Below are positions 20,550 through 46,689 of a DNA stretch of 64,000 bases, piece by piece. The position numbers and the translations under genes are program-made. Below the pieces are notes generated by a model. The model did not search any database and was not told the DNA's origin. It saw nothing but the letters and a program-made list of their open reading frames with translations. This DNA is from Halobacteria archaeon HArc-gm2 (lineage in GTDB: Archaea > Halobacteriota > Halobacteria > Halobacteriales > Haloarculaceae), in NCBI GenBank assembly GCA_025517465.1, contig JAOPKE010000001.1, positions 310,001 through 374,000 on the forward strand, given 5' to 3'. How positions within the stretch are numbered: the stretch's first letter is position 1; each line of letters begins with the position of its first letter.

Positions 20550-21205
20550 TGCTCGGTCGGGGATTTGAACCGAGGCGAGACGGTCCGGGCGTGCGGCCTC
20601 GCTGCGCTCGGCCGGTCCGGGCTGCGACTCGCGTGTTCAAATCCCACTCCCTGCGCTGTTTCTTCGTCACTACGTTCCTCAGAAACATGCTCGGTCGGGG
20701 ATTTGAACACGTGAAGACGTTCCGGGTCGCTCGCTACCGCTCGCTTCCCGGGCTGCGACTTCCCTGCTCAAATCCCCGGTGAGCATTCGCTCCTCACGTT
20801 CGTTCGTCGTAGAATGCTCGGTCGGGGATTTGAACCACGCCCTGACGGTCCTGCTCATTCGCTTCGCTCACTGCGCGGGCTGCGACTGGTCTACTTCAAA
20901 TCCCACTCCCTGCGCTGTTTCTTCGTCACTACGTTCCTCAGAAACATGCTCGGTCGGGGATTTGAACACGTGAAGACGTTCCGGGTCGCTCGCTACCGCT
21001 CGCTTCCCGGGCTGCGACTTCCCTGCTCAAATCCCCGGTGAGCATTCGCTCCTCACGTTCGTTCGTCGTAGAATGCTCGGTCGGGGATTTGAACCACGCC
21101 CTGACGGTCCTGCTCATTCGCTTCGCTCACTGCGCGGGCTGCGACTGGTCTACTTCAAATCCCACTCCCTGCGCTGTTTCTTCGTCACTACGTTCCTCAG
21201 AAACA
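20550..21205. repeat. Tandem repeat array carrying tRNA-Glu 3'-end fragments
   Basis: Two adjacent 259-base copies (20688-20946 and 20947-21205) read as identical, preceded by a partial unit from 20550. Each copy contains two fragments TGCTCGGTCGGGGATTTGAA, the 3' end (T arm and acceptor strand) of the tRNA-Glu gene at 21206-21280. Fragment starts are 20550, 20688, 20815, 20947 and 21074. Inverted T-arm-like sequences (TTCAAATCCC) sit between them, so each sub-unit can fold back. No credible ORF. The array lies on the 3' side of the tRNA, where integrative elements insert. Confidence 0.8.
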
Positions 21206-21280
21206 TGCTCGGTCGGGGATTTGAACCCCGGTCATCGGCTCGAAAGGCCGAAATGATTGGCCGGACTACACCAACCGAGC
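21206..21280 (-). tRNA. tRNA-Glu (anticodon UUC)
   Basis: A 75-nt cloverleaf on the - strand. Acceptor GCTCGGT pairs ACCGAGC, the anticodon stem TCGGC/GCCGA holds loop CTTTCGA (anticodon TTC), the T arm is CGGGG-TTCAAAT-CCCCG, and the discriminator is A. No intron and no encoded CCA. A TATA box (TTTTTTATAC on the - strand, about 21307-21317) lies about 30 bases upstream of the mature 5' end. The 3' flank is the tandem repeat array. Confidence 0.95.
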
Positions 21281-45767: not shown

Positions 45768-46147
45768 GCCGTCGTCCTCGACTTTTCTCACCGCTCGCTG
45801 TCGCTTCCCGGAGAGCACTCGCTGGCTCGTCCGTGCTCGCACACTTCCGTTCGCCGACCACCGCTGGCGCTATCGAGTTACGAAAGTAGGAAAGGTGGGT
45901 GGGTGGGTGGGTGGGTGGGGTGGCACCGGGATGGTGCCTATCGAAAAATGATGGCTGCACGATTAAAATCGTTGTGGCCGATTATCGGATATGGTTGAAT
46001 AGATGGAGCGACGGTCCGTTCGAGAACGTAGTCAAGGGCTAGTAGGGGCCAGATATGTGGGCTCCCTCTCTAATTATCATTGGCGATTCTCTGGGGCAGC
46101 GTGCATTCGCACGATCCGCCACGCTGGCGGCCCGGTTCGTGACGCCG
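45768..46147. other. Gene-free region with a GGGT simple repeat
   Basis: No supported gene. At 45894-45922 there is a run of seven GGGT-type units (GGTGGGTGGG...GGGG), able to form a G-quadruplex on the + strand. An AT-rich patch follows (CGATTAAAATCG and neighbours, about 45960-45971). From about 46120 the tRNA-Leu-linked repeats begin. Confidence 0.5.
45894..45922 (+). repeat. GTGG simple sequence repeat, G-quadruplex candidate
   Basis: Perfect tandem TGGG/GTGG units giving at least six G3 tracts separated by single T, ending GGGGTGG. It lies 127 bases after sdhA. Confidence 0.7.
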
Positions 46148-46604
46148 TTCGCAATCGCTGGCGCGATTGCTCACCGGACGAAGACGGTCGGCCTCACTGT
46201 GCTCGGCCGCTGCGACTTCCAGGGTTCGCAATCGCTGGCGCGATTGCTCACCGGCGGCCCCCTCCGGGACAGCACCCTCGAACGAGGGTCTCGCCAGTAC
46301 GTCGTTTGCTTCGGTAGGAATTGTGCGTGGGTGCTGATCCCGGGTAGGGACAACACCTGCATCGTTCTCGGCGGGTGTGCCGCCGTGCGATGCGTGGGAC
46401 CGGATTTGAACTTCCGTCACTTCGCTCCGCTCGTGACGACGTTCGCAATCGCTGGTGCGATTGCTCACCGGCGGACCCCACGGGACAGCGCCCTCGATCC
46501 GCAGTCTCGCCAGTGCGTAGTTTGCTTCGGTAGGAATTGTGCGTGGGTGCTGATCCCTGGTAGGGAGAGCACCTGCATCATTCGGCGGGTGTGCCGCCGT
46601 GCGA
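46148..46604. repeat. Tandem repeat array derived from tRNA-Leu fragments
   Basis: Two related units (about 46225-46411 and 46442-46626, offset 214-217 bases). Each has a hairpin GCAATCGCTGG(C/T)GCGATTGC (46228, 46445; a third at 46151), then a piece resembling the tRNA-Leu variable arm and anticodon stem, then TTTGCTTCGGTAGGAATTGT, then the tRNA 3' end TGCGTGGGACCGGATTTGAA. The last such 3' end belongs to the intact tRNA at 46605-46689; the other (46391) is a fragment. No credible ORF. Confidence 0.7.

Positions 46605-46689
<85 letters not shown>

Follow-up and report, generated by a model that had tools for sequence, protein, structure and literature searches.

Tandem hairpin units that copy the neighbouring tRNA 3' end in haloarchaea: a possible family of tRNA-anchored mobile cassettes

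The window analysed here is a 64,000-nucleotide stretch of the genome of Halobacteria archaeon HArc-gm2 (contig JAOPKE010000001.1, positions 310,001 to 374,000). It contains an intact tRNA-Glu(TTC) gene on the minus strand at 21206-21280, which was identified by ARAGORN and matches Rfam family RF00005 with 58.6 bits. The 3' 20 bases of this tRNA, written on the plus strand as TGCTCGGTCGGGGATTTGAA, occur six times in the window and on that strand only: once in the tRNA itself (21206-21225) and in five further exact copies that start at 20550, 20688, 20815, 20947 and 21074. The number expected by chance is 0 (100 shuffles), and coincidence was rejected as their source. As the tRNA lies on the minus strand, every one of the five extra copies follows its 3' end. 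The array consists of five minus-strand units in the order a-b-a-b-c. Unit 1 (type a, 132 nt, 21074-21205) is built of hairpin A, hairpin B and an exact copy (21074-21093) of segment E, which the boundary profile described below delimits as the last 21-22 nt of the tRNA, from G53 to the discriminator base. Unit 2 (type b, 127 nt, 20947-21073) ends in an exact E copy at 20947-20966. Unit 3 (132 nt, 20815-20946) is identical to unit 1 and unit 4 (127 nt, 20688-20814) to unit 2. Unit 5 (type c, 138 nt, 20550-20687; exact E copy 20550-20569) has hairpin A in common with type a and a different hairpin B. In a core-model search of 98 chosen sources, a selection rather than all loci, units 1 to 5 were matched at 21082-21164, 20955-21037, 20823-20905, 20696-20778 and 20558-20647, respectively.

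The preliminary description of this locus had reported five extra copies of the tRNA-Glu end, all on its 3' side, two identical 259-bp units with a partial third, and inverted T-arm sequences, and these observations all hold. The segments 20636-20894 and 20895-21153 are 100% identical, the partial third copy covers 73 nt (21154-21226; TRF gives a period of 259 and 2.4 copies), and an inverted T-arm is found in every unit of the array. The true repeat unit is 127-138 nt long, and the 259-bp repeat is a duplicated dimer (132 + 127); because units 1 and 3, and units 2 and 4, are identical, the array appears as two identical 259-bp repeats.

A typical unit, whether single or in tandem, comprises hairpin A, a long hairpin B and a copy of the neighbouring tRNA from G53/T54, the start of the T-loop, to the discriminator base. 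The edges of the copied block are sharp. Over 107 copies, identity with the tRNA is 0.96-1.00 from position -21 to -1; at the 5' edge it falls from 1.00 at -21 to 0.78 at -22 and 0.34 at -23, and at the 3' edge from 0.96 at the last tRNA base to 0.65 at the first base beyond. For this profile, and for the own-E, core-similarity, arm, acceptor, mismatch-order and loop counts given below, a dense tRNA cluster on contig C2 of the window's own genome (G000; 11 of 51 tRNAs) and its counterpart in a congener (G006; 12 of 53) were excluded. In typical units, hairpin A lies immediately behind the tRNA end and has a T-rich start. In unit 1 (21175-21205, minus strand) it is predicted to form a 7-bp stem with a tandem GA/GA internal loop and a GTA triloop; under DNA parameters, the stem is predicted without its inner pairs.

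The left arm of hairpin B mirrors the T-loop and the inner T-stem, and its right arm is the T-loop of the E copy. Its core reads AG-T-CG-CAG...A(A/C)-CG-T-CT, with a T.T mismatch and a variable tip. At a scoring position picked without reference to the own tRNA, the left arms of 91 units match their own T-stem at 3.54 of 5 positions and those of other tRNAs at 2.48 (maximum of 1000 shuffles, 2.78). For 45 of these units, no T-stem in the genome scores higher than the own one, and complementarity fades outward (0.99, 0.89, 0.76, 0.59, 0.31). For the acceptor strand, mirroring of the own tRNA (3.67 of 7, against 3.49 for others; shuffles up to 3.74) does not exceed chance, and neither does its pairing with the inverted arm; a reading of the unit as an acceptor/T minihelix was therefore rejected. 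In an alignment of 123 distinct rows, which was fitted to the core model and so leans in the model's favour, standard pairs make up 98.9% of 958 cells, and 155 cells have changed on both sides; the non-Watson-Crick cells are G-T (9), A-C (6) and others (5). None of 500 shuffles reached these pairing and covariation values, sliding the partner by 1-3 columns lowers pairing to 28-51%, and a smaller MAFFT alignment has the same two-sided changes. Single-strand folding of hairpin B is under selection.

The window holds a second array, behind the tRNA-Leu gene at 46605-46689. Here, a 214-nt unit on the minus strand (46391-46604) ends in an exact E copy (46391-46410), and the copied tRNA text begins further 5', on the anticodon/variable-arm side. 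The array (45900-46604, minus strand) is differently built, with a GAGCAATCG...CGATTGCGAAC hairpin in place of the T-loop; a core hairpin B lies further downstream (46162-46235, minus strand; core model, E 1.1e-10). At the tRNA-Leu locus of Haloglomus (L122), more of the tRNA is likewise copied.

Searching by blastn with the 259-bp unit gave 23 places in G000, of which 22 are at tRNA genes by coordinate comparison; one of these genes (L007) is tRNA-Trp-like and intron-bearing, was recognised by eye and had been missed by the tRNA searches. The sole exception (C1:177396) is between two genes. The preliminary description had proposed looking for the unit beside other tRNA genes and would have taken its absence there as contrary evidence; it clearly recurs near many of them. 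At the tRNA loci inspected in G000, units end in the 3' end of their own tRNA and most carry its inverted T-arm. We counted own-E copies as 20 nt with at most three mismatches within 600 nt of the tRNA. They are present downstream of 83 of 167 tRNA genes in four haloarchaeal genomes from three families: 20/40 in G000, 21/41 in G006, and 24/44 and 18/42 in G097 and G139, which belong to other families. The same distance upstream holds none in any of the five genomes counted. The fifth, G132, has no core matches, and no own-E copy lies behind the 25 tRNA genes counted of its 40, the other 15 not having been fetched. Ends of other tRNAs were found near tRNA genes in 5 of 5,894 tests in the four array genomes (1/1380 in G000, 0/1440 in G006, 4/1636 in G097 and 0/1438 in G139) and in 0/448 in G132. 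The own tRNA is a closer fit than every other tRNA in the genome for 50 of 57 E-like copies. Cores with as much as 0.97 identity stand behind tRNAs whose ends differ at 6-8 of 20 bases, and there the arms differ.

The core model matches 189 of 194 Halobacteria genomes and 62 of 65 genera. In a sample of 30 fetched core loci, which is biased because the model includes the T-arm arms, 29 are preceded at 31-221 nt by a same-strand tRNA. A DNA-pattern scan of 84,980 species gave at least 80 loci (80 listed of 116 stretches); among those listed, 43 are haloarchaeal by name (our count), with a same-strand tRNA within 300 nt upstream at 22, and the remaining 37 look like chance matches. The same core also occurs away from tRNAs, chiefly in Halorubrum repeats. 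At seven Halorubrum loci (L108, L099, L098, L114, L147, L155 and L091), the core hairpin is part of, or adjacent to, a longer conserved repeat (GAGGCTGGGGAGG...GGGACTCAAAGGGGCAG...) with the look of a structured RNA; L108 and L114 had no match in Rfam. Other core hairpins (L053 at G000:C1:177396-177440, L120 and L154) are situated inside genes or at gene junctions and have short arms around GTGAG/CTCAC or ACTCAT. Viruses, in which the preliminary description had suggested searching for the 259-base unit, were not borne out as carriers: a phage collection gave no match, and 27 IMG/VR loci from two pattern scans included no hairpin of this kind and no tRNA. The 26 matches to the first pattern had neither a tRNA nor mirror arms of at least 8 nt, and the one locus from the second was a chance match inside an open reading frame, without a tRNA; viral spread found no support in these searches. 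Among plasmid records, 12 of 14 match across the tRNA portion only. The dense tRNA cluster of G000 (L043, C2:74000-82000) has eleven tRNA genes in 3.4 kb, is cassette-free, has a counterpart in G006 and looks virus- or plasmid-derived.

Two interpretations had been offered beforehand, stacked attachment-site remnants and a self-amplifying tRNA-derived repeat. In the former, the copies would be short scars left by ordinary integrative viruses or plasmids. Such an origin would agree with the usual targeting of tRNA 3' ends by archaeal integrases (PMC8371274) and with a copied block that begins at the T-loop and runs to the tRNA 3' end. Nevertheless, we regard it as highly improbable. The spacers are a conserved, covarying hairpin family rather than random scars, and they recur in nearly all the genomes searched with the core model. 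Beyond the arrays, 7.5-15 kb behind 22 tRNAs held no further E copies except one at 1.2 kb and a weak one at 5 kb, and no integrase or kb-sized element was found between copies at these tRNAs (one unit is about 790 nt long). G000 has just eight PF00589 matches; only one of them adjoins an arrayed tRNA, tRNA-Ser(TGA), and the orthologous site in G006 lacks it. The phage collection had no match. What survives of the attachment-site idea is the mechanism, because the sharp T-loop start of the copy is the type of boundary left by tRNA-targeting recombinases. The self-amplifying repeat came close: the unit amplifies in tandem, recurs behind many tRNA genes and is tailored to each.

Searches for a moving enzyme covered several candidates. 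Judged by eye, the open reading frames surrounding tRNA-Glu include no recognisable integrase. A conserved divergent integrase at the anchor tRNA, as in integrons, was rejected with the tRNA-Ser(TGA) candidate, given its absence from G006. All 13 genomes tested, five of them without core matches, have PF00589 recombinases, whose presence or absence is therefore uninformative. Y1 transposase gave 0 matches in G093 and G139, which have 22 core matches each, and at 13 Y1_Tnp/TnpB (IS605-type) loci of G000 the core is absent, with one match at E 0.55; an IS605/PATE origin was rejected on both counts. An ordinary Rfam RNA was also rejected as the identity of the units, since no curated family was matched: the tRNA alone scores above the gathering threshold in the window stretch, the other matches being sub-threshold, and five other loci yielded nothing but a tRNA.

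The folded form could be RNA or DNA. As RNA, the units would be transcribed as a tRNA trailer and fold into processing, termination or tRNA-mimic structures, and tRNase Z could cut at each E copy. Archaeal terminators are T-rich, as are the starts of the units, and the copies end exactly at the mature tRNA 3' end. Hairpin B covaries strongly, and, judged by z-score under RNA parameters, all three distinct units give a better fold for the sense than for the antisense strand (two of three under DNA parameters). For unit 2, the fold z-score is -5.6 with RNA and -3.45 with DNA parameters; folding energies leave the two forms unseparated. The loops do not fit an RNA role as well. In hairpin A and in the tips of hairpin B, tandem GA/GA internal loops are closed off by GNA triloops or GNNA tetraloops. 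In four genomes, 113 of 152 triloops are GNA, and the GNNA tetraloops comprise 27 GNYA and 2 GNRA, whereas RNA tetraloops favour GNRA; G097, alone of the four, has no GNNA tetraloop of the GA/GA-capping kind. Hirao and colleagues (PMC4686876) state that mini-hairpin DNA is extraordinarily stable when a GNA or GNNA loop is combined with two or more G-C pairs, and that the GCGAAGC mini-hairpin melts at 78 C. The loops of the units obey the GNA/GNYA rule of hyperstable DNA minihairpins, unlike RNA GNRA loops, and we therefore lean towards single-stranded DNA as the folded form. A function as RNA is unlikely also because G-U cells are about as rare as A-C cells, the acceptor strand lacks the pairing of a minihelix, about half of the tRNA genes carry no units, and Rfam returned, sub-threshold matches aside, no family other than tRNA.

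Comparison of congeners demonstrates that related species differ in which units an array contains, how many there are and how they are ordered. At the tRNA-Glu locus, where G000 and G006 are 92% identical over 1.2 kb, G000 carries five units and G006 two, arranged in a different order and with hairpins A and B combined differently. A tRNA-Ser(GGA) site (C18:77190) carries no unit in G000 and one in G006, and the flank resumes at position 8 and position 177, respectively. Two exact 120-bp units separate the tRNA from the old downstream sequence at C1:662310 in G006, and at C3:151927 the unit order is swapped between the two species. Among 34 arrays, mismatches are fewer in the first copy than in the last one in 14, equal in number in 16 and more numerous in 4; in an earlier, smaller set of 11, these figures were 4, 7 and 0.

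Such changes could arise without any mobility of the units if local unequal recombination, together with template switching at tRNA ends, builds the arrays and matches the arms. The exact tandem duplications of 259 bp in the window and 120 bp in G006, the swapped order between congeners, and an arm complementarity that peaks by the loop and fades outward, as palindrome correction would give, are all in keeping with this process. We nevertheless hold it to be distinctly unlikely as the whole explanation. One conserved core stands behind many different tRNAs and in non-tRNA places, and the tRNA-Ser site that is empty in one species is filled in its congener; hence, something carries the core to new places.

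The best explanation, which we consider just probable, is a class-wide family of tiny, mostly non-coding mobile haloarchaeal cassettes that insert at the T-loop of tRNA genes. A unit would insert at the T-loop and leave the tRNA intact, and the displaced 3' part of the tRNA would stay behind as the E copy. By analogy with integron attC sites, what the enzyme recognises may be the sense strand in a folded, single-stranded DNA form; our leading guess for the mover is a tyrosine-recombinase-like activity that belongs to the host or is shared. New units would enter beside the tRNA, with older ones pushed outward to decay, and homologous recombination between repeats would then duplicate, delete and swap units. 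Several points weigh against mobile cassettes. Reshuffling and exact duplication require homologous recombination alone, the filled/empty difference is between congeners, with no insertion seen within a species, and simple integrase exchange cannot account for one core gaining the arms and E of another tRNA. The PF00589 search, positive in every genome, names no enzyme, and the evidence for a proximal-first order is one clear orthologue pair plus a modest trend. More tentatively, and with less probability, the units might constitute a gene-free counterpart of integrons in nearly all haloarchaea, with tRNA genes as docking platforms for ~130-nt folded single-stranded DNA cassettes whose arms are re-matched to the landing tRNA, a host recombinase as the mover, and old arrays as records of past insertions.

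On our best reading, the units would function most nearly as integron cassettes do, with folded sites of the attC type and tRNA genes as anchors. As in integrons, tandem units stand at an anchor site in reshuffled order, a folded long imperfect hairpin with mirror arms ends each unit (hairpin B covaries), and a core site is common to unit and anchor. In contrast to integrons, the anchor is a tRNA gene, with units behind about half of these genes; nearly all units are gene-less, the arms change with the tRNA, and no neighbouring integrase was recognised. Since no integrase was recognised beside the anchor and nearly all units lack genes, we do not file the units as integrons; we regard them instead as a family of tRNA-anchored hairpin cassettes that has so far gone undescribed. 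Searches of the open-access literature, with subscription journals and preprints outside its coverage, showed no description of such tRNA-trailing cassettes. The tRNA-targeted integrative elements of archaea are kb-sized and carry an integrase, whereas the present units are ~130 nt, non-coding and in tandem. Both have the 3' part of a tRNA gene as target, kept intact by a duplicate (PMC8371274), and the block copied here runs from a tRNA loop to the tRNA 3' end. Three further comparisons draw on PMC3119063. IS200/IS605 elements and the PATEs of Haloquadratum resemble the units as short haloarchaeal palindromic mobile repeats without a transposase and as single-stranded DNA hairpins, but the core is absent at the 13 Y1_Tnp/TnpB loci and two array-rich genomes have no Y1 match. 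PATEs are described there as leaving their target unduplicated, in contrast to the copied tRNA end of the present units. The small mobile repeats (SMRs) of Haloquadratum are likewise short and mobile, with an enigmatic mover, but they target other mobile elements, unlike the cassettes at tRNA genes.

A repeat that trails roughly half of the tRNA genes in genomes of several families within a single archaeal class, is tailored to each tRNA and turns over from one congener to another would mean that a large source of genome change at essential genes has been overlooked. The cassettes would offer a natural system for folded single-stranded DNA recombination in archaea, would explain spurious open reading frames and tRNA fragments beside tRNA genes and, speculatively, might give decoy sites for viruses that integrate into tRNA genes.

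In G000, 39 units measure 104-214 nt each, and one longer unit of about 790 nt contains a 152-codon open frame (L440, at the C3:106179 locus, about 455-1243 nt behind the tRNA). This frame has a lipobox-like start and lies between a hairpin-A-like sequence and a hairpin B with an imperfect E copy; the unit is possibly a gene cassette. Downstream of G000:C11:500282 and G006:C2:22902, some E copies are broken after the T-stem by an oppositely oriented hairpin, which is perhaps a second palindromic element that targets the cassettes.
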